Positions 49,967 to 64,000 of a stretch of DNA of 64,000 nucleotides are shown here, one piece after another. The first letter of the stretch is position 1, and every line of letters starts with the position of its first letter. Below the pieces are notes generated by a model that was not told where the DNA came from, did not search any database, and saw nothing but the letters and a program-made list of their open reading frames with translations. This DNA comes from Micrococcus porci (GTDB lineage: Bacteria > Actinomycetota > Actinomycetes > Actinomycetales > Micrococcaceae), in assembly GCF_020097155.1 (NCBI RefSeq), contig NZ_CP083691.1:1364001-1428000 (forward strand). The letters run 5' to 3'. Both the position numbers and the translations under genes were made by a program.

Positions 49967-50948
49967 ATGACCCACCTCAACGCAGCTCTCACACCTCGCC
50001 ACCGGCTCAAGGTCGCCCGCCTCGTCGTCGAGGACGGCCACCCGATCAGCGAGGTCGCCGCCCGGTTCCAGGTGTCCTGGCCGACCGTGAAGCGGTGGGT
50101 CGACCGCTACCTCGCCGGCGAGTCCATGAACGACCGCTCGTCGCGACCGAAGTCCTCACCGAAGAAGACGAACAAGGCGGTGACGAAGCGGTGCGTGAGC
50201 CTGCGAATGCGACTGCGCGAAGGACCAATCCAGCTCGCCGCCCGGCTGGGGATCGCTCCCTCGACGGTCCACCGCATCCTCACGGCGGCGCGCCTGAACC
50301 GGTTGTCGTACGTCGACCGCGCCACGGGCGAGCCAGTACGTCGCTACGAGCACCCGCACCCGGGTTCGCTGGTGCACGTGGACGTGAAGAAGATCGGGAA
50401 CATCCCCGACGGCGGCGGCTGGCGTTACGTCGGCCGCCGCCAGGGCCAGAAGAACCGCGCCGCGACACCGGACAAGCCGAAGAACAAGTGGCACAGCCCC
50501 AAGCTCGGGTACGCATTCGTACACACCGTCATCGACGACCACTCCCGCGTCGCGTACACCGAGGTCCACGACGACGAGACCGCCATCACCGCCGTCGCCG
50601 TCCTGCACCGGGCGGTCGAGTGGTTCGCCGAACGTGGCGTTACCATCGAACGAGTGCTGTCCGACAACGGTGGGGCATACCGGTCGTACCTGTGGCGCGA
50701 CACCTGCGAGGCGCTGTCGATCCGTCCGAAGTTCACCCGCCCGTACCGGCCGCAGACCAACGGAAAAGTGGAGCGGTTCCACCGCACGATGGGTGACGGG
50801 TGGGCCTACGCCCGCTGCTACACCAGCGAGCAAGAACGCCGAGACGCCCTCCCCGACTGGCTCCACCACTACAACCAGCATCGCCCCCACAGCGCCTGCG
50901 GGAACCAGCCGCCCTTCTCACGATTGATCAACGTCCCCGGACAGTACA

Positions 50949-50953
<5 letters not shown>
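49967..50953 (+). CDS. IS481-family transposase
   Basis: A 328-aa DDE transposase. An N-terminal HTH pair (ISEVAARFQVSWPTVKRWVDRY and a second near AARLGIAPSTVHRIL) precedes the catalytic core: Asp139 (LVHVDVKKIG), Asp233 (VLSDNGGAY) and Glu269 (NGKVERFHR), with the D-35-E spacing of the family. Unbroken. Its final residues INVPGQYN come from the right inverted repeat, and the TAG stop (50951-50953) is supplied by the target site. Confidence 0.95.
50926..50948 (-). repeat. Right terminal inverted repeat of the IS481-type element
   Basis: 23 bp; reverse complement begins TGTACTGTCCGGGGAC and ends GTTGATC, as at the left end. Confidence 0.9.
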
Positions 50954-52138: not shown

Positions 52139-54691
52139 GTGCGTATCCCGCTTGACTGGCTGCGCGAGTTCGCGCAGGTCCCCGCCGACGCCACCGCCGA
52201 GGACGTCCTGGCCGACCTCGTCACGGTCGGCCTCGAGGAGGAGGACGTCCACCGCCCGTCCGACGAGCTCACCGGCCCGCTCGTCGTCGGCCAGGTGCTC
52301 ACCCGCGAGCCCGAGCCGCAGAAGAACGGCAAGACCATCAACTGGTGCTCCGTGCGCGTGGTGCCCGAGGGCGCCGAGCAGACCCTGACCGGTGAGGGCA
52401 TCGACCCCTCGGGCGTGCAGGGCATCGTCTGCGGCGCCCACAACTTCGAGGTCGGGGACAAGGTCGTCGTCTGCCTGCCCGGCGCCGTGCTGCCCGGGGA
52501 CTTCCGCATCTCCCCGCGCTCCACGTACGGCCACGTCTCCGCCGGCATGATGGCCTCCGCCCGCGAGCTCGGCCTCGGCGACGACCACGACGGCATCATC
52601 GTCCTGGGCGACATGGGCCTCGACCCCGAGGTCGGCACCGACGTGGTCGACCTCTTCCACCTCCGCGAGGAGGCCGCCGAGGTCAACGTCACCCCGGACC
52701 GCTCCTACGCGTTCTCGATCCGCGGCATCGCCCGCGAGTACGCGCACGCCACCGGCACCGCGTTCACGGACCCGGCCGCCGCCGTCACCGCGCCTGAGGC
52801 GAACGACGCCGGCCCCGCCGTCACGCTCGCCGACGGCGCCGGCATCTACGGCGTCCCCGGCTGCGACCGGTTCGTGGCCCGCGTGGTCGAGGGCATCGAC
52901 CCCGCCGCCGCGACGCCGCCGTGGATGGCCGCGCGCCTGCGCTTGGCCGGCATCCGCCCCCACTCCCTGGCCGTGGACGTCTCCAACTACGTCATGTGGG
53001 AGCTGGGTCAGCCCCTGCACTTCTACGACGCCGACCGCCTCACCGGCGGGATCACCGTGCGCCGCGCCGCCGCGGGGGAGACCCTGCGCACCCTCGACGA
53101 CAAGGAGCGCACCCTCGATCCCGAGGACCTCGTGATCGCCGACGAGTCGGGCGCGATCGGCCTGGCCGGTGTCATGGGCGGCGCCGCCACCGAGGTGTCC
53201 GAGGGCACCACCCGCGTGCTCATCGAGTCCGCGCACTTCGACGCGGTGTCGATCGCGCGTACCCGCCGCCGCCACCGCCTGCCCTCCGAGGCCTCGAAGC
53301 GCAACGAGCGCGGCGTGGATTGGGAGATCGCCGACGAGGCCGCCGAGCGCGCGGTGCAGCTGCTCGTCGAGCTCGCGGGCGGCACCCCCGCCCAGGGCGT
53401 CACGGACGTGGGCACCCGGCCCGAGCCCGTCGTCGTCGAGCTGGACCCGGAGTACCCGGCCCGCCGCATCGGCGTGGACTACCCGCGCGAGCGGGTCGTG
53501 GAGCTGCTGACCGGGCTCGGCGCGTCCGTCGAGGACGCCGGGGACCTCCTGCAGGTCACGGCGCCCACCTGGCGCCACGACCTGCGCATCCCGGAGGACC
53601 TCGTGGAGGAGGTCGCCCGCCTGGACGGCTACGCGAACATCCCCTCCACCCTCCCCGTGGCGCCCCCGGGCCGCGGCCTGACCCGCGCCCAGGTGCACCG
53701 CCGCCGCGTGGCGGACACCCTGGCCGCCGCAGGCCTCACCGAGGTCCTCGACTACCCGTTCGTCTCCGAGGGGCAGAACCGCCTGTTCGGCTCCGCCACC
53801 CCCGAGGAGGGCGCGGCGCAGCGCATGGTGCGCCTGGCCAACCCGATCTCCTCGGAGTTCGGCTGGATGCGCACCACCCTGCTGCCGAACCTCCTGGAGA
53901 CCGTCCGTCGCAACGTCTCCCGCGGCTTCAAGGACGTCGCCCTGTTCGAGGTCGGCGCCGTGTTCCTGCCGGGTGACGGCGCCCTCGGCTCGCCCTCCAA
54001 CGAGCCCATCGGTGTCAAGCCCTCCGCCGAGACCCTCGCGGAGCTGGACGCCGGCATCCCGGCCCAGCCCCGCCACGTGGCCGGCGCCTTCGCCGGGCAC
54101 GAGGCCGCCCCCGGCGCCGGATTCGCCCCGCGCGCGTTCGACTGGCAGGACCCGATCGCCGCCGCGCTCGCGGTCGGCCGGGCTGTCGGGGTGGAGCTGA
54201 CCGTGGTCCAGGGGACGCACCAGGCGTTCCACCCGGGCCGCACCGCCACCCTGTCGCTGCCGGACGGCACCGCGGTGGGCGTGGCCGGTGAGCTGCTGCC
54301 GGCCTGGCTCGAGGACGCGGACATGCCCGCCCGCACGGGCGCCTTCGAGTTGGACCTGGATGCCGTGCTGGCGGCCGCCGCGGACCGCGTCGTGGCCCGG
54401 CCGCTGTCCACGTACCCCGCCTCCCAGCAGGACGTCGCCCTCGTGGTGGCGGACGACGTCGTCGCCGGGGACGTGCGCGCCACCCTCGCCGAGGGCGCGG
54501 GCGAGCTGCTCGAGGAGGTCGCGCTGTTCGACGTCTACGCCGGCAAGGGCGTGCCCGAGGGGCACAAGTCCCTCGCCTTCAGCCTGCGCTTCCGTGCGCC
54601 GGACCGCACCCTGACGGCCGACGAGGCCTCCGAGGCCCGCGAGGCCGCCACGGCGCTCGCCGCCGAGCGCCACGGGGCCGTGCAGCGCTGA
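52139..54691 (+). CDS. pheT: Phenylalanyl-tRNA synthetase beta subunit
   Basis: An 850-aa protein: tRNA-binding OB domain (about 40-160), B3/B4 editing domain (DDKERTLDPEDLVIADESG, MGGAATEVSEGT), B5, the synthetase-like core (AAGLTEVLDYPFVSEGQNRLFG) and the C-terminal FDX-ACB anticodon domain. GTG start 7 bp after pheS. Full length. A long hairpin after the stop ends the operon. Confidence 0.97.
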   Translation: MRIPLDWLREFAQVPADATAEDVLADLVTVGLEEEDVHRPSDELTGPLVVGQVLTREPEPQKNGKTINWCSVRVVPEGAEQTLTGEGIDPSGVQGIVCGAHNFEVGDKVVVCLPGAVLPGDFRISPRSTYGHVSAGMMASARELGLGDDHDGIIVLGDMGLDPEVGTDVVDLFHLREEAAEVNVTPDRSYAFSIRGIAREYAHATGTAFTDPAAAVTAPEANDAGPAVTLADGAGIYGVPGCDRFVARVVEGIDPAAATPPWMAARLRLAGIRPHSLAVDVSNYVMWELGQPLHFYDADRLTGGITVRRAAAGETLRTLDDKERTLDPEDLVIADESGAIGLAGVMGGAATEVSEGTTRVLIESAHFDAVSIARTRRRHRLPSEASKRNERGVDWEIADEAAERAVQLLVELAGGTPAQGVTDVGTRPEPVVVELDPEYPARRIGVDYPRERVVELLTGLGASVEDAGDLLQVTAPTWRHDLRIPEDLVEEVARLDGYANIPSTLPVAPPGRGLTRAQVHRRRVADTLAAAGLTEVLDYPFVSEGQNRLFGSATPEEGAAQRMVRLANPISSEFGWMRTTLLPNLLETVRRNVSRGFKDVALFEVGAVFLPGDGALGSPSNEPIGVKPSAETLAELDAGIPAQPRHVAGAFAGHEAAPGAGFAPRAFDWQDPIAAALAVGRAVGVELTVVQGTHQAFHPGRTATLSLPDGTAVGVAGELLPAWLEDADMPARTGAFELDLDAVLAAAADRVVARPLSTYPASQQDVALVVADDVVAGDVRATLAEGAGELLEEVALFDVYAGKGVPEGHKSLAFSLRFRAPDRTLTADEASEAREAATALAAERHGAVQR

Positions 54692-54730
54692 GCCGGACCC
54701 CCGGCTCGGCCGTGCGTGAGACGAGCGTGA

Positions 54731-54780: not shown

Positions 54781-55389
54781 GTGTCCCGGACCGAGGGCAC
54801 CGCGCAGGTGCTGGCGGCCCTGGGGACGAGGCTGGGTCTCGGGCCGCGCGCCCTGGCCCTGGCGCACTCCTGCCCCGGCTGCGGGGCGACGGACCACGGG
54901 GCCCCGGCACTGCGCCGCGCCGGCGACGGGACGACACCCGGTGGGGCGCCCGGCGACGACGGGGGGCCCGTCCTGCCCGCCGTGAGCCTCACCCACGTCG
55001 ACGGGCCCCGGCCGGTGACCGTGCTCGCGTGGTGCACGCCGTCCGTCGCAGGCACGGCGTGGGGGATCGGCGTGGACGCCGAGGACCCGACGGCGCCGCA
55101 GACCCTGCGCGCCTTCGCCGCGGGAGCGGACGGCGCCGCGGAAATCGACGCCGTGGCCTTCGCGGCGGAGGAGCGCGCCGCCCTGGCCGGGCTGTCCCCG
55201 GAGGGGGCCCTCGCCGAGCGCGTGCGCCTCTGGACCGTCAAGGAGGCCCTGGTGAAGGCCCGCGGGACCGGGTTGGACCGCGACCCCGCCGAGGTGCGCC
55301 CCCAGCTCGGGGAGGCGGTCGTGCCCCTGGCGGATCCGCGGCTGCCCCCGGGCGTGGTCGGGACGGTCGCCTGGCGGCCGGCCTCCTAG
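54781..55389 (+). CDS. 4'-phosphopantetheinyl transferase superfamily protein
   Basis: A 202-aa Sfp/EntD-type PPTase. Motif GIGVDAED (Mg2+-binding Asp) and WTVKEALVKARGTGL (the W-x-x-KEA-x-x-K signature) are both intact. It would load phosphopantetheine onto carrier domains, the obvious local client being the Pls/PosA-type synthetase 1.4 kb away, convergent. An earlier GTG at 54712 is in frame but would place the pheST terminator in the coding region, so GTG 54781 is preferred. The M1 peptidase gene converges 41 bp downstream. Confidence 0.85.
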   Translation: MSRTEGTAQVLAALGTRLGLGPRALALAHSCPGCGATDHGAPALRRAGDGTTPGGAPGDDGGPVLPAVSLTHVDGPRPVTVLAWCTPSVAGTAWGIGVDAEDPTAPQTLRAFAAGADGAAEIDAVAFAAEERAALAGLSPEGALAERVRLWTVKEALVKARGTGLDRDPAEVRPQLGEAVVPLADPRLPPGVVGTVAWRPAS

Positions 55390-55430
55390 CCCCGGCGCGG
55401 CGTGCCGGCACCCCGAGCCCGGGCGGGGGC

Positions 55431-56792
55431 TCAGCCGGGGAAGGCGGGCAGCTCCGGCCGCAGCGTCCAGGCGTCGAACAGCGCGTCCACGTCCTCCGGG
55501 GCCACGTCGGCGCGCGGCGCCCAGGCGAGCACGTGGGCGCGGAACCCCGGCGTGTCCACGGTGGCGAAGCGGTGCCGGGCCACCCAGTCCCGGAGCATCT
55601 CGCCGAACACGGCGTCACCCAGCAGCGTGCGCACGGCCAGCACCGTGAGCGCGCCCCGCTTGTACACGCGATCGTCGAACATGTCGGCGGCGCCCGGCGC
55701 GGCCAGGACGAGGTCTTCCCCCTGGCGCTTCAGGCCGTGCCAGGCCTGCTTCGCCTCGTGGCGGAGGGCGGCCCGGCCCGACGCCTCCGCCCACAGCCAC
55801 TCGGAGTAGCAGGCGAATCCCTCGTGCAGCCACAGGTCGGACCAGCGCCCCAGGGTCACGGCGTTGCCGAACCACTGGTGGGCCATCTCGTGGGCGATCA
55901 GCCGCTCCGACTCCCACGAGCCGTCCAGGTGGTTCACGCCGAACAGGGACAGGCCCGCGGCTTCGAGGGGGATCTCCAGGACGTCGTCGGCGACGACGGC
56001 CGCGTAGTCGTCGAACGGATAGGGCCCGTAGGCCGCGGTGAAGGCCTCCATCATGCGGCCCTGGCCGGCCATCGCGGCCTCGGCGCGGGCCTGCAGGCGC
56101 GGGGAGACGACGAGGCGCAGGGGCGGCACGCCCCCGGCCGCGGCCGACTCCGGCGTCCCGGAGCCCGGCGCGGTCACCTGCCGGTACCGGCCGATCTGCA
56201 GGGTGAGCAGGTAGGCGGGGACGGGCCGGTCCATGACCCACCGCCAGGTCTCGCGGGATCCGCGGGAGCGCAGGCGGGTGCCGCGGCCGTTGGCCACGGG
56301 GAGGTAGCCGGCGTCGCAGGTGACGGTGATGTCCGCGGTCTGGCGGACCGCGGGGGAGTCGATGCACGGCACCCACGTGGACGCGCCGTGGGGCTGCCCG
56401 GCCACGAGCACCCCGTCCGTCAGCTCCTCCCAGCCGATGGTCCCCCACGGGCTGCGGCGGGGCCTCGGGTGCCCCGAGTAGGACAGCCGCAGGACCACGA
56501 GCGACCCCTCCGGCAGGGAGGCGCCCAGGTGCACGACCACGCGGTGCGGGCGGTTGCGCGGCGTCGTCGCCCTCACCTTGAGGGGGCGGCCGTCGTGGGT
56601 GCCGGCGGCGCCGTCGACGGCGAGCCGGTGCAGGTCGAGCTCGACGGTGTCGCTCTGCCGGCACAGCCGCACGTGGAGCTCCGCGACGCCGGCCACCCGG
56701 TTGGACGCCAGCCGGACGTCGAGCTCCACCCGCAGGTGCTCGATCGTGGCGGTGTCGGAGCCGACTCCGGGGATGTACGGGTCGGTGCTCAT
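55431..56792 (-). CDS. M1-family metallo-aminopeptidase
   Basis: A 453-aa zinc aminopeptidase without signal peptide. The zinc site is HEMAHQWFG (His301, Glu302, His305) followed by Glu324 after exactly 18 residues. The usual substrate motif GAMEN is replaced by LEIPLEAAG near 272-280, keeping the Glu. About half the length of typical PepN, lacking the C-terminal helical domain. The ATG start overlaps the stop of the Pls/PosA-type synthetase (ATGA), so it is the second gene of that operon. Degradation or trimming of the synthetase product is plausible (inference). Confidence 0.88.
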   Translation of the reverse strand: MSTDPYIPGVGSDTATIEHLRVELDVRLASNRVAGVAELHVRLCRQSDTVELDLHRLAVDGAAGTHDGRPLKVRATTPRNRPHRVVVHLGASLPEGSLVVLRLSYSGHPRPRRSPWGTIGWEELTDGVLVAGQPHGASTWVPCIDSPAVRQTADITVTCDAGYLPVANGRGTRLRSRGSRETWRWVMDRPVPAYLLTLQIGRYRQVTAPGSGTPESAAAGGVPPLRLVVSPRLQARAEAAMAGQGRMMEAFTAAYGPYPFDDYAAVVADDVLEIPLEAAGLSLFGVNHLDGSWESERLIAHEMAHQWFGNAVTLGRWSDLWLHEGFACYSEWLWAEASGRAALRHEAKQAWHGLKRQGEDLVLAAPGAADMFDDRVYKRGALTVLAVRTLLGDAVFGEMLRDWVARHRFATVDTPGFRAHVLAWAPRADVAPEDVDALFDAWTLRPELPAFPG

Positions 56793-59700
56793 CGGATGCC
56801 TCCTGCGCTGGTCGGGTCGGGGATCACAGGCAGCGCGCCGGTGGCGGCCGCGGCCCGCTGGTGTGCCGTCGGGGTCTTGCCGGGCCGGCGCCACGGGGCC
56901 ACGGGGTTGCCGAGCCACCAGGTGCCGCCGGGCAGCTCCTCGCCGCGCATGACGAGCGAGCCGGCGCCCACGGTGGTGCCCTCGCCCAGACGCGCGGCGG
57001 GCAGCACCACGGAGTTGGGGCCGAGGGTGGCGCCGTCGGCGAGGACGACCTCGTCGAGGGCCATGACGCGGTCGTGGAAGAGGTGGGTCTGCACCACGCA
57101 GCCGCGGTTCACGGTGGCCCCGTCGCCCAGGGTGACGAGGTCCGCCTCCGGGAGCCAGTAGGACTCCACCCAGGCGCCGCGGCCGATGCGGGCGCCCATG
57201 CCTCGCAGGAACCAGACCATGGCAGGGGTGCCGGCGGCGGCGCGGGAGAACCAGGGGGCGGCGAGGAACTCGGTGAACGTGTCCGCGACCTCGTTGCGCC
57301 AGATGAACGAGGACCACAGGGGGTGCTCGCCGGCACGCACGCGGCCCACGAACGCCCTCTTGGCGAGGACGGTCACCACGGCGGCGACGGCGCCCGCCGC
57401 GAGCAGGACGGCGCCGCCGAGCAGGGCGGCCAGCCACCAGGTGCCCACCGCTGCGAGGGCGGCGAGGGCGGCGCCCACGGCGATCGTCAGCGCGACGTGC
57501 AGCCAGACCGGGATCGCGCGCAGCAGCTCCCAGCCGGTGCGGGCGGCCTTGAGCCGGGCCGGGGGCGCGTAGGTGAGCGAGGCGTCGGCCTCGACCTCGG
57601 TGCGGCGCAGGCGCACGGGCGGCGATCCCATCCACGAGGTGCCGGCCTTGGTCTTGGCGGGGGTGGTGGAGAGGACGGCCACGAGGGAGTCCCTGCGGAG
57701 GGTGCGGCCACCGGGGACCATGCCGGAGTTGCCCACGAAGGAGCGCTTGCCGACCTTCGCCGGGGCCACGTGCATCCAGCCGTCTTCGAGCGTGTAGGAG
57801 GAGACCATCGTGTCGTCGGCGAGGAACGCGCCGTCGCCGACCTGGGTCATCGTCGGCAGGAGCACCACCGTGGACGCCTCGACGTCCTTGCCGACGCGGG
57901 CGCCGAGCCAGCGCAGCCAGGTGGGCGTGAAGCGGGAGGCGTAGATCGGGAAGAGCTGGTCGCGGGCGGCGTCGAGCAGGCGCTCGGTGGCCCAGATCTG
58001 CCAGCCCACCCGCGAGCGCACGGGGTGGTGGCCCGGGGTGATGCCGATCGCGAGGACGCGCACGGCGACGAGCACCAGCAGCATCTGCACGCCGAACCAC
58101 ACGGCGGCGATCAGCGGGCTGGCCGCGAGCAGGCGGGCGGCGGCGGTGCCGACGGCCTGCAGCGGCGACGCGTCGGCGGCGGCGGGCGGCCACCAGGTCA
58201 GGGACCACGCGCCGACGGCCGCCGCGGCGGCCACGGCCGCCAGCGGCAGCAGCGCCACGGCCGTGGAGGAGAGCGTGGAGAGCACGCGCCAGCCGGCGGC
58301 GTCCGGGGCGGTCTCGGCCGGGGCCGAGCCGCGCTTGACCTTGCCGAGCTTCACGGCGGGGGAGCCGCCGTGGCGCTGGTGGCCGCGCAGACGCCCGGCC
58401 ACGGTGGAACCGGCCTCGACGTGGGCGCCGGCGCCCACCTTGGCGCCGGGCAGCAGGGTGGAGCGGGACCCGACGACGGCCCCGGCCCCGACCTCCACGG
58501 TGCCGACGCGCAGCACGTCGCCGTCGACCCAGTAGCCGGAGAGGTCGACCTCCGGCTCGATCGAGGCGCCCTCGCCCACGGTGAGGAGCCCCGTCACGGG
58601 CGGGAGGGCATGCAGGTCGGCGTCGCGGGCGATGCGGTTGCCCAGCAGCCGGCCGTAGGCGGGGATCCACCCGGCCCCGGCGAGGGAGTAGGGGTCCACG
58701 AGGTCGGTGACCTGCTGCGCCAGCCAGAGGCGCAGGTGCACGCGTCCGCCGCGCGGGTGGGCGCCCGGGCCCACGCCGTGCAGCAGGGCGCGTGCCGTCA
58801 GCCCGGCCACGAGCATGCGGCCGGGGGCGGTGACCACGAACAGCCCCACGAGCGCGAGGATCCACCACGGGACGGTGGGCAGTCCGGGGACCAGGCCGGT
58901 GGCGGCGAGGAGGTTCACGGCGACGCCGGTCCACGTCCCCAGGCGCAGCGCCGGGAGGATGAACGCGGGCAGCCCCACGAGGGTCTGGGCCCACTGGGTG
59001 CGCCGCCGGGTGGTGTCGACGTTGCGCTCGTGGACCTCGATGCCCTCGGCGCCCTCGCCGAGCACGGCGGAGACGAGCTCGTCGGCGGTGGGGTGGCGGT
59101 AGACGTCCTGGACGGTCACGCCGGGGTGGCGCTCGCGCAGCCGGGCCACGAGCTGGGCCGCGGCGAGCGATCCGCCGCCGGCGGAGAAGAAGTCGGTCGA
59201 GCCGTCGGCCGGGGCCGCGCCGAGCACGGCCGCCCACTGGGCCAGGACCCAGCCGTCGGGGGTGGACTCGTCGGGGGTGTCGGCGTCGTCGGTGGCGGCG
59301 GTGCCGGGCAGCGGCCAGGGCAGGGCGTTGCGGTCGACCTTGCCGGAGGTCTTCGTCGGCAGGGAGTCGACGAGGGCCAGGCGCGGGACGATCGCCGCGG
59401 GCAGCTCCTCGGCGAGCCGGGCGTGGGCGGCGTCGAGGTCGAAGCCCTCGAGCGGGCCCGTGGGCTTGAGGTAGCCCACGAGGAGCTGGTTGCCGGCCGG
59501 GGTGGTGCGCACCGCGGCGGCGCCGCCCTGCACACCGGGCAGGTTCTGGAGGGCTGCGTCCACCTCGCCGAGCTCGATGCGGCGGCCGCCGACCTTGACC
59601 TGGTCGTCGGCGCGGCCCAGGAACAGCAGTCCCGCGGGGTCGTAGAGCACGAGGTCGCCGGAGCGGTAGGCGCGGTCCCAGCCGAGGGTCTCCATGGGCG

Positions 59701-60838
59701 CGTACTTCTCCGCGTCCTTGGCGGGGTCGAGGTAGCGGGCCAGGCCCACGCCGCCGATGATCAGCTCGCCGGTCTCGCCCTCCGCCACGGGGACGCCGGA
59801 GGCGGGGTCGACGACAGCCAGGTCCCAGCCGTCCAGGGGCAGGCCGATGCGCACGGGTCCCTCGCCGGCCAGCGGGGCGGCGCACGCGACGACCGTCGCC
59901 TCGGTGGGGCCGTAGGTGTTCCAGACCTCGCGACCGGGCACGGCCAGGCGTGCGGCGAGGTCGGGCGGACAGGCTTCGCCGCCGAAGATCAGCAGGCGCA
60001 CGTTCGCGAGTGCGGCCGTCGGCCACATCGCGGCGAGGGTCGGCACGGTGGAGACGGCCGTGATGCGCCGTTCGGCCAGCCAGGGGCCGAGGTCCATGCC
60101 CGAGCGGACGAGCGCGCGGGGCGCGGGCACGAGGCACGCGCCGTGGCGCCAGGCCAGCCACATCTCCTCGCAGGAGGCGTCGAAGGCCACGGAGAGGCCG
60201 GCCAGGACACGGTCGCCGGGGCCGAGCGGATCGGCGGTGAGGAAGATCCGGGCCTCGGCGTCCACGAAGGCGGCCGCGGAGCGGTGGGACACGGCGACGC
60301 CCTTGGGCGTGCCCGTCGAGCCGGAGGTGAAGATGATCCACGCGTCGTCCTCCAAGCGGGGGGCGCGGGCCTCGGGCGCCTCGGCCCGCTCGGCGGCCGC
60401 GCGGTCGTCGAGCGCGCGCTCGCCGGTCAGGACGCCGGCCACCCGGGCCTCGCCGAAGACGAGCCGGGCGCGCTCCTCGGGGTCGTCCGCGTCCACCGGC
60501 ACGTAGGCGGCGCCGACCGCCATGACGGCGAGGATGGAGACGTAGAGGGCCGCGGTGCCGGAGGGGATCCGCACGCCCACCCGGTCGCCCGCGCCGATGC
60601 CGTGCGCCTGCAGGAACCGCGCGGACTCGAGGACCCGGTCCAGCAGCTCCGCGTAGCCGAGCTGCGCCGTGCTGTCGTCCAGGGCGGGTGCCTCGGGGTG
60701 CTCGCGCGCGGTCGCGTCGAGGATGTCGATCAGCGTGCGTGGCGGCGGTGTGCGGTCCGTGCCCGGCAGCTGGGGTGCGTGCGGGGTGCCGGCGTCGTGG
60801 GGGGCGGAGCGGGGCGTGGACGGGTGGGGTGCGGTCAC
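56789..60838 (-). CDS. Pls/PosA-type membrane-bound non-ribosomal peptide synthetase
   Basis: A 1,349-aa single-module synthetase. Adenylation domain about 35-510: FTSGSTGTPKGVAVSH (~168), FGGEACP, NTYGPTEATV, YRSGDLV and KTSGKVDRNA. Carrier domain with phosphopantetheine Ser557 in FFSAGGGSLAAAQ. Then, in place of condensation and thioesterase domains, about six membrane helices alternate with three hexapeptide-repeat (left-handed beta-helix) segments (for example VGAGAVVGSRSTLLPGAKVG and VGDGAFLADDTMVSS). This is the architecture of epsilon-poly-lysine synthetase and its relatives (terminal domain TIGR02353). The amino acid used is unknown. GTG start with GGAGG 4 nt upstream. Confidence 0.9.
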   Translation of the reverse strand: MTAPHPSTPRSAPHDAGTPHAPQLPGTDRTPPPRTLIDILDATAREHPEAPALDDSTAQLGYAELLDRVLESARFLQAHGIGAGDRVGVRIPSGTAALYVSILAVMAVGAAYVPVDADDPEERARLVFGEARVAGVLTGERALDDRAAAERAEAPEARAPRLEDDAWIIFTSGSTGTPKGVAVSHRSAAAFVDAEARIFLTADPLGPGDRVLAGLSVAFDASCEEMWLAWRHGACLVPAPRALVRSGMDLGPWLAERRITAVSTVPTLAAMWPTAALANVRLLIFGGEACPPDLAARLAVPGREVWNTYGPTEATVVACAAPLAGEGPVRIGLPLDGWDLAVVDPASGVPVAEGETGELIIGGVGLARYLDPAKDAEKYAPMETLGWDRAYRSGDLVLYDPAGLLFLGRADDQVKVGGRRIELGEVDAALQNLPGVQGGAAAVRTTPAGNQLLVGYLKPTGPLEGFDLDAAHARLAEELPAAIVPRLALVDSLPTKTSGKVDRNALPWPLPGTAATDDADTPDESTPDGWVLAQWAAVLGAAPADGSTDFFSAGGGSLAAAQLVARLRERHPGVTVQDVYRHPTADELVSAVLGEGAEGIEVHERNVDTTRRRTQWAQTLVGLPAFILPALRLGTWTGVAVNLLAATGLVPGLPTVPWWILALVGLFVVTAPGRMLVAGLTARALLHGVGPGAHPRGGRVHLRLWLAQQVTDLVDPYSLAGAGWIPAYGRLLGNRIARDADLHALPPVTGLLTVGEGASIEPEVDLSGYWVDGDVLRVGTVEVGAGAVVGSRSTLLPGAKVGAGAHVEAGSTVAGRLRGHQRHGGSPAVKLGKVKRGSAPAETAPDAAGWRVLSTLSSTAVALLPLAAVAAAAAVGAWSLTWWPPAAADASPLQAVGTAAARLLAASPLIAAVWFGVQMLLVLVAVRVLAIGITPGHHPVRSRVGWQIWATERLLDAARDQLFPIYASRFTPTWLRWLGARVGKDVEASTVVLLPTMTQVGDGAFLADDTMVSSYTLEDGWMHVAPAKVGKRSFVGNSGMVPGGRTLRRDSLVAVLSTTPAKTKAGTSWMGSPPVRLRRTEVEADASLTYAPPARLKAARTGWELLRAIPVWLHVALTIAVGAALAALAAVGTWWLAALLGGAVLLAAGAVAAVVTVLAKRAFVGRVRAGEHPLWSSFIWRNEVADTFTEFLAAPWFSRAAAGTPAMVWFLRGMGARIGRGAWVESYWLPEADLVTLGDGATVNRGCVVQTHLFHDRVMALDEVVLADGATLGPNSVVLPAARLGEGTTVGAGSLVMRGEELPGGTWWLGNPVAPWRRPGKTPTAHQRAAAATGALPVIPDPTSAGGIR

Positions 60839-60909
60839 GGGACCTCCGGGGACGGCGTGGGAGTGAGGACGGGGCGGGGGACGACGCGCGGGCGGTCCAG
60901 GACCGACCC

Positions 60910-60934
60910 AGCCTAGTTCACCTGTTGTTCACCT
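60910..60934 (-). promoter_or_regulatory. Pls/PosA operon promoter with PHO-box-like repeats
   Basis: Minus strand AGGTGAACAACAGGTGAAC (60934-60916) abuts TAGGCT (60915-60910), a -10 giving a leader of about 65 nt. On the plus strand the repeats read GTTCACCTGTT GTTCACCT, two 11-bp units matching the streptomycete PhoP core GTTCACC. Confidence 0.6.
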
Positions 60935-60960: not shown

Positions 60961-61956
60961 TCAGGAGAGGGGGAGCAGCACCTTGCCCGTGGTGGCCCGC
61001 GACGCCAGCAGGGTGTGCGCGCGGCCGGCCTCCGCCAGGGGCACCCGGGCGCCGATCCGCACGTCCAGCGCGCCGGCGGACCAGGCGTCGAAGAGCTCTC
61101 TGCCGCGCCAGGCGGTCTCCTCGGCGGTGCGGGTGTAGTGGGCCAGGGACGGCCGGGTGACGTAGAGCCCGCCGCCGGAGTTCAGCCGCTGGAGGTCGAA
61201 CGGGGGCACCTGGCCGGAGGCGCCGCCGAAGAGCACCAGCGTGCCCCGCACGCGCAGGGAGGCCAGCGAGTCCTCGAAGGTGTCCGCACCGACGCCGTCG
61301 AACACCGCGTGGGCGCCCTCACCGCCGGTGGCGTCCAGGACGGTCTGCCGCAGCTCGGCGTAGGGCACAGCCGCGGAGGCCCCGGCGGCCGCCGAAAGCG
61401 CGCGCTTGTCCTCCGTCGAGGCGGCCGTGATGACCGTGGCGCCCCGGGCCGCGGCCAGCTGGGTCAGGAGCAGGCCCACGCCGCCGGCCCCCGCGGTGAG
61501 GGCGACGACATGCCCGGGCTCCACGGGGAACGTGGAGCGGCACAGGTAGTGGGCGGTCATGCCCTGCAGGGGCAGCGCGGCGGCGTCGGCCAGGTCCACG
61601 CCCGCGGGCACGTGCAGCAGCTGGTCCGCCGGGGCCGTGAAGTGCTCGGCGTAGGTGCCGCGGCCGGCGGCGGTCGCCACGCGCGCGCCCCGCAGCGCCT
61701 CGTCCACGCCGGGGCCCAGCGCGACGACGACGCCCGACCCCTCGCTCCCGGGGGTGAAGGGGTGCGGGACGGCGTAGACGCCGGAGCGCTGGTAGGTCTC
61801 GATGAAGTTCAGGCCCGCCGCGGCCGTCCGCACCAGCACCTCTCCGGCGCCGGGGGTCGGGACGGCGGTCTCGGTCCAGCGCAGGACCTCGGGGCCGCCG
61901 ACCTCCTCGGCGATGATCGCGTGGTGGCGGGCGGGGATCTCGGCGTGGGTGCTCAT
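60961..61956 (-). CDS. NADPH:quinone oxidoreductase (zinc-independent MDR family)
   Basis: A 331-aa medium-chain reductase: GroES-like N-terminal half, NADPH loop ALTAGAGGVGLLLTQLAAARGA, then LNSGGGLYVTRPSLAHY typical of quinone reductases. No catalytic zinc Cys. Reduces quinones or related enones; possible detoxification. ATG at 61956 with -10 TAGAGT 7 nt upstream. Divergent from argC. Confidence 0.9.
   Translation of the reverse strand: MSTHAEIPARHHAIIAEEVGGPEVLRWTETAVPTPGAGEVLVRTAAAGLNFIETYQRSGVYAVPHPFTPGSEGSGVVVALGPGVDEALRGARVATAAGRGTYAEHFTAPADQLLHVPAGVDLADAAALPLQGMTAHYLCRSTFPVEPGHVVALTAGAGGVGLLLTQLAAARGATVITAASTEDKRALSAAAGASAAVPYAELRQTVLDATGGEGAHAVFDGVGADTFEDSLASLRVRGTLVLFGGASGQVPPFDLQRLNSGGGLYVTRPSLAHYTRTAEETAWRGRELFDAWSAGALDVRIGARVPLAEAGRAHTLLASRATTGKVLLPLS

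Positions 61957-62010: not shown

Positions 62011-64000
<1,990 letters not shown>

Follow-up and report, generated by a model that had tools for sequence, protein, structure and literature searches.

A three-gene locus in Micrococcus porci very probably encodes a system for epsilon-poly-L-lysine (epsilon-PL), judging by its likeness to characterised ones: a pls-pldII gene pair with an adjoining gene for a phosphopantetheinyl transferase (PPTase). It lies in a stretch of 64,000 nucleotides, hereafter the window, from a host genome that consists of a single contig of 2.65 Mb. We arrive at this reading because the synthetase shares all ten pocket positions with the epsilon-PL synthase 7wew, scores above the curated cut-off of the family TIGR02353, and has an M1 peptidase gene tightly downstream in 140 of the 146 loci of its type. 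The peptidase, moreover, is about 41% identical to other Pls-adjoining M1 enzymes as against 25–27% to the remaining M1 enzymes of the host, and the pls gene of a Corynebacterium variabile operon has yielded the polymer in Streptomyces coelicolor. A further reason is the association of PPTase and Pls across genomes, in a host with no match to the condensation domain PF00668 and only two to PF01648.

The result is a product prediction for a genus that is common on skin and in the environment. Epsilon-PL is an antimicrobial polymer, and the prediction opens to testing an actinobacterial gene pair that is widespread and apparently silent. The adjoining PPTase may be a missing factor when such pls genes are moved into other hosts, and the other Pls of the host, from a second lineage, hints at a possible modified polymer.

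Relation to known systems

Much of this is known in kind. Micrococcus Pls homologues and a pls-peptidase operon were already reported by Jiang 2021, which places its hits with Pls, and the pls of the C. variabile operon led to epsilon-PL in S. coelicolor (PMC8117764). In Streptomyces albulus pldII overlaps pls by 4 bp (PMC4361855), and the antiSMASH class covering such genes is NAPAA (PMC12613906). It is this published arrangement, together with the Micrococcus homologues in print, that makes the product predictable. Like the S. albulus Pls and its C. variabile homologue, the synthetase described here combines adenylation and thiolation domains with three tandem domains carrying membrane helices, and has a peptidase gene next to it. 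Unlike them, it belongs to a Micrococcus with a 2.65-Mb genome, has a PPTase gene converging on its operon, and has a product that is so far a predicted one.

The locus thus joins the known pls-pldII systems, distinguished by an adjoining PPTase gene that is specific to its lineage. The tie to the PPTase is the less expected detail, and an acyltransferase-linked Pls lineage, discussed in the last section, looks least described. Titles and abstract openings of mostly open-access literature described neither a locus of Pls with a phosphopantetheinyl transferase nor one of Pls with a dihydrodipicolinate synthase and an acyltransferase; the terms phosphopantetheinyl, dapA and acyltransferase are absent from the main text of Jiang 2021 (PMC8117764). 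No report of an epsilon-PL-type product from Micrococcus was found in the part of the literature searched.

Layout of the locus and its flanks

The pls open reading frame (56789–60838, minus strand; 1,349 aa) is followed on the same strand by the gene of a 453-aa M1 metallopeptidase (55431–56792). The junction reads, on the minus strand, ...CCGATGAGC..., and an ATGA stop/start common to both genes (56789–56792) makes a 4-bp overlap, through which we infer that pls and M1 are translationally coupled. Converging on this operon is the plus-strand PPTase gene, which ends at 55389 and has an ambiguous start, either a GTG at 54712, 20 bp past the end of pheT, or, as originally taken, a GTG at 54781. 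The coordinates, the length of the synthetase, the overlap and the convergence given in the original prediction are all confirmed by the open reading frames. Neither a sigma-70-type promoter nor a terminator-like site was found at the locus, a result of little weight in a GC-rich genome.

To the left lies a gene (52139–54691, plus strand) that we take to be pheT. To the right are a presumably quinone-oxidoreductase-like gene (60961–61956, minus strand) and one that we take to be argC (62055–63095, plus strand). The trio had been described as interrupting a conserved pheST-argC order. It does sit in the interval from pheT to argC, but this interval also holds the oxidoreductase-like gene, which is found at the same site in genomes without Pls. 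We sought argC in 30 of the 83 Micrococcaceae genomes without a Pls/PosA match and obtained the locus in 29: the oxidoreductase-like gene stands alone between pheT and argC in seven, the two genes are spaced by about 74 bp in two, and in 20 no pheT was seen in the 1.5 kb of flanking DNA covered. As Pls-less loci hold the oxidoreductase-like gene there, the trio is better placed between pheT and that gene than simply between pheT and argC. Among the Micrococcaceae type-1 loci with enough DNA, the window itself not counted, 32 of 38 keep both pheT downstream and argC upstream.

Just upstream of pheS, an open reading frame (49967–50953, plus strand) is presumably transposase-like, with a helix-turn-helix and an integrase-like core.

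The synthetase and its lysine-type pocket

The synthetase matches the Pls/PosA family TIGR02353, scoring 633 bits where 423 is the cut-off, and contains matches to AMP-binding (PF00501, 215 bits), PP-binding (PF00550, 43 bits) and Hexapep (54 bits). All three parts lie on the minus strand. The adenylation domain (59303–60769; residues 24–512, as matched to 7wew) is followed by a thiolation, or carrier, domain (59066–59251; residues 530–591), in which the carrier serine is present within GGGS, and by the Pls/PosA terminal domain (56900–58987; residues 618–1313), defined by the TIGR02353 match. A hydropathy scan places hydrophobic segments of the terminal domain at residues 653–671, 859–877, 895–913, 915–933, 1113–1131 and 1141–1159. 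Three pairs of membrane helices separated by soluble domains would give roughly this pattern; the misfit consists of one segment missing near 620–645, an extra one at 895–913 and one inside the adenylation domain (91–109).

The best solved relative of the adenylation domain is the epsilon-poly-L-lysine synthase 7wew, which we take to be the S. albulus protein, with 652 bits against 340 for the runner-up. Identity to it is 66%, and the best-scoring adenylation domain of the sample reaches 67.8%. Read by motif, with the ten positions assigned by the Stachelhaus code, the pocket consists of D220, A221, E224, S263, I284, G286, T308, V316, V317 and K500, that is DAESIGTVVK, and each of these residues is identical in 7wew. 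The same code occurs in all 146 type-1 sequences of an alignment of 192 loci. The refuting case named originally, a pocket that lacks the acidic residue expected for binding an amino acid, does not apply: Asp220 and Glu224 are present.

How such a pocket may be read has been worked out on PosA, which makes delta-poly-L-ornithine in Acinetobacter baumannii. Both amines are reported to be bound by an Asp and a Glu in the first and third places, and the chain length to depend on the second, with Ala for lysine, Met for ornithine and Phe for shorter acids (PMC10522769). The synthetase described here has the Asp, the Glu and, in the second place, Ala; under these rules its substrate is predicted to be L-lysine. 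The original prediction had called the product unknown; identity of the pocket with that of 7wew allows us to go further. PosA itself shares TIGR02353 and the two acidic positions, but has the pocket DMEHNGTVSK and is encoded by a single-gene operon (PMC10522769).

That another diamino acid, such as ornithine, beta-lysine or diaminobutyrate, is used and another isopeptide polymer made is highly improbable. Related enzymes do differ at position 2, which is Met in PosA and Phe in the diaminopropionate and diaminobutyrate synthetases (PMC10522769), so small changes can shift the substrate; against this, it is the Ala of lysine Pls that stands here, and the ten positions equal those of 7wew. A polymer of diaminobutyrate or diaminopropionate, or of ornithine, is accordingly disfavoured by the pocket, and the Phe of the poly-diaminopropionate and poly-diaminobutyrate synthetases is absent, its place being taken by Ala221.

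The 192 loci comprise the window and 191 fetched loci, drawn among the matches listed, so that the weakest Pls hits are absent, and 80 of the sampled loci are best matches rather than a random draw. After removal of 15 sequences without the Asp/Glu pocket, most of them without an adenylation domain, and of seven duplicates, 170 remained for a tree, which was rooted on the Phe-pocket group and holds no characterised synthetase. Its node uniting types 1 and 2 has a support of 0.999, the type-1 node one of only 0.32.

The M1 peptidase

The peptidase is a two-domain, PldII-like protein (Peptidase_M1, 93 bits). The HExxH motif with a Glu 18 residues on, part of the original prediction, is indeed present in it and in 162 of 162 other aligned sequences, an alignment of 163 that counts duplicates and the two other M1 enzymes of the host. 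These two carry the GAMEN signature, which is missing in the 16 Pls-linked M1 sequences listed; only its Glu is kept there, as (I/V/M)P-x-E. The figure of about 41% identity refers to Pls-adjoining M1 enzymes in seven large genomes of the same class. The closest solved chains are the zinc metalloproteases 6a8z and 6iff, with 133 and 130 bits. A general PepN was rejected as an identity for this enzyme, which lacks GAMEN and is only 25–27% identical to the two GAMEN-bearing M1 enzymes.

Co-travel of the genes had been proposed as a test, and for pls and M1 it is borne out: the peptidase gene follows pls closely in all 87 type-1 loci from Micrococcaceae and in 53 of 59 from other actinobacteria. 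Five more loci outside the Micrococcaceae have the M1 gene in a looser position, 1.9–3.5 kb away, and one (L237) is without it. Like pldII of S. albulus, the peptidase gene lies on the same strand as pls and overlaps it by 4 bp; that PldII is an M1 enzyme is suggested by the conserved gene order.

A point of misfit concerns location. PldII has been reported outside the membrane (PMC9223678), whereas simple hydropathy finds no hydrophobic N-terminal segment or export signal in the peptidase of the window; by the same measure, 5 of 129 M1 open reading frames of at most 520 aa have a hydrophobic N-terminus. This bears on an alternative that we consider possible, though clearly less probable than not, namely that an epsilon-PL-like polymer, instead of being a secreted antimicrobial, stays attached to the surface or wall of the cell, serves there as a housekeeping coat or a store of lysine, and is turned over by a cytosolic M1 enzyme. 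The missing N-terminal segment would fit such a role, as would the occurrence of Pls in every one of the 11 genomes searched within the genus and the largely fixed chromosomal site noted above, which is unlike that of a typical accessory antibiotic cluster. The family is present, however, in only 114 of 197 Micrococcaceae genomes and 42 of 197 genomes class-wide, and is therefore dispensable above the genus level; the Pls product, furthermore, is described as excreted (PMC8117764).

The PPTase and its association with Pls

The third gene of the putative epsilon-PL locus (54712 or 54781 to 55389, plus strand) is assigned to the Sfp-type 4'-phosphopantetheinyl transferases by an ACPS match of 39 bits, a motif alignment and a profile match to Sfp (1qr0). 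The marks of such enzymes are GxD, E and (W/F)xxKEAxxK in a protein of about 220 aa. The motifs GxD, E and WxxKEAxxK are invariant in an alignment of 20 sequences (G120, D122, E154, W174, K177, E178, A179 and K182). The protein is in this respect like the Sfp/AASDHPPT group; the sequence match is weak, at about 40 bits for the alignment profile against 1qr0 and 2byd, and the copies come mostly from Micrococcaceae Pls loci.

Of 197 Micrococcaceae genomes, 114 have a Pls/PosA-family protein, whatever its type, and the PPTase is found in 105 of these; of the 83 other genomes, 20 have it. The profile used was built largely from Pls-adjoining copies, which favours such copies. The Fisher p of about 1e-23 is nominal, as related genomes are treated as independent. 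Within ten genera of mixed Pls status (91 genomes), 41 genomes have both, seven Pls only, six the PPTase only and 37 neither, which argues for repeated joint gain or loss of PPTase and Pls. Of the 114 genomes 101 were compared for distance, and in 82 of them at most 8 kb separate the PPTase from a Pls.

The association of the PPTase with Pls holds inside the Micrococcaceae and meets a limit outside it. Among loci for which 4 kb or more of downstream sequence was covered, the gene was seen at 55 of 82 Micrococcaceae loci and at 3 of 57 other type-1 loci, so that its presence in every pls locus is rejected. Both counts are lower bounds: the genome-wide profile finds copies that the open-reading-frame scan missed (e.g. 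beside L195), and the model used in that scan was trained mostly on Micrococcaceae copies. A further limit is one genus outside the mixed set, g3 (e.g. G012, G042 and G067), where ten genomes have the PPTase and none has a Pls/PosA match; there, the PPTase must have another client than Pls.

Could the PPTase be a mere neighbour on the pheT side that mainly serves another carrier protein? We regard this as rather unlikely. The gene runs in the direction of pheT, only 20 bp away if the early start is used, a homologue occurs in 20 of 83 Pls-less genomes (ten of these in g3), the genera g23 and g6 hold five and two Pls-bearing genomes without it, and loci outside the Micrococcaceae mostly show no such gene. 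Such a role is at odds with the joint presence and absence of PPTase and Pls within genera (both, Pls only, PPTase only and neither: 4, 0, 0 and 6 genomes in g13; 4, 0, 0 and 7 in g32; 2, 0, 0 and 8 in g31; 1, 0, 0 and 8 in g21), with the proximity of the two genes in 82 of 101 genomes, and with a host that has no PF00668 match. Since the host genome (G000) shows no condensation domain at an E-value of 0.001 and only two PF01648 matches, beside 19 AMP-binding matches, the Pls proteins are the likely clients of the PPTase.

In a locus of another genome (L243; G217:C214), which fits none of the three locus types and is outside the type-1 counts, a lysine-pocket protein of the Pls family has no M1 gene, and a PPTase gene of the same orientation begins 21 bp further downstream, so that the link to the PPTase recurs in a different layout.

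A possible course of synthesis and the points against it

The division of labour that had been suggested for the trio, with synthesis, carrier activation and degradation, is supported by the pocket, the family match, the order of pls and M1 and the association with the PPTase. The PPTase would load the phosphopantetheine arm onto the carrier domain of Pls to give holo-Pls. By analogy with Pls, the adenylation domain, whose pocket is described above, would then activate L-lysine as the adenylate and hand it to the arm, and the membrane-embedded tandem domains would link lysines singly at the epsilon-amino group and finally set the chain free. The M1 enzyme, if it acts as PldII does, would hydrolyse the polymer for self-protection or lysine recovery.

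Several points speak against the epsilon-PL reading or its realisation in the host. The M1 enzyme shows no export signal by hydropathy, the profile finds no PPTase above its threshold in 9 of the 114 Pls/PosA-bearing genomes, and 20 genomes have the PPTase without Pls. No epsilon-PL was made by C. variabile in culture or by C. glutamicum given the gene (PMC8117764). For Micrococcus luteus, sensitivity to 4 ug/ml of epsilon-PL is reported (PMC8506220), so that free polymer, if secreted, would hurt close kin unless controlled.

A second Pls lineage

The host has another Pls, 47% identical to the first, at positions 2593138–2597406 of its contig (G000:C1; L040:7139–11407), with a TIGR02353 score of 521 bits and the lysine-type pocket DAESIGTVIK. 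In place of the peptidase, a 481-aa membrane acyltransferase-like protein (HGSNAT_cat, 33 bits; Acyl_transf_3; DUF418) overlaps its end by 4 bp, and the operon spans L040:7139–12849, about G000:C1:2593138–2598848. Thirteen Micrococcaceae loci including that of the host form one clade (0.999); type 2 had been labelled by the acyltransferase partner, and the tree then returned exactly those 13.

Ten of the 13 loci hold a dapA-like gene (e.g. L181:6118–7140, L262:6114–7055 and L187:4392–5441), above the TIGR00674 cut-off in the three checked and, in the cases read, located between Pls and acyltransferase, which suggests a dedicated lysine supply. In five of the 13 an M1 gene lies 3.3–3.8 kb past pls. 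At the type-2 locus of the host, neither a dapA-like gene nor an M1 gene occurs in the 18 kb covered. One may speculate that Micrococcaceae have two lysine-polymer systems, the second producing an epsilon-poly-lysine acylated at its end or side chains, with one PPTase activating both, but we hold this to be doubtful. Acylated epsilon-poly-lysine was not met as a product class in the literature searched.

Further arrangements are found among the sampled loci. One synthetase (L207:6142–9720) lies beside M28 peptidases and an acyltransferase, and another (L252:5959–8182) has an M1 gene about 0.8 kb on; their pockets read DFECLSVVTK or DFEYIGTVTK, and both would be other isopeptide systems.
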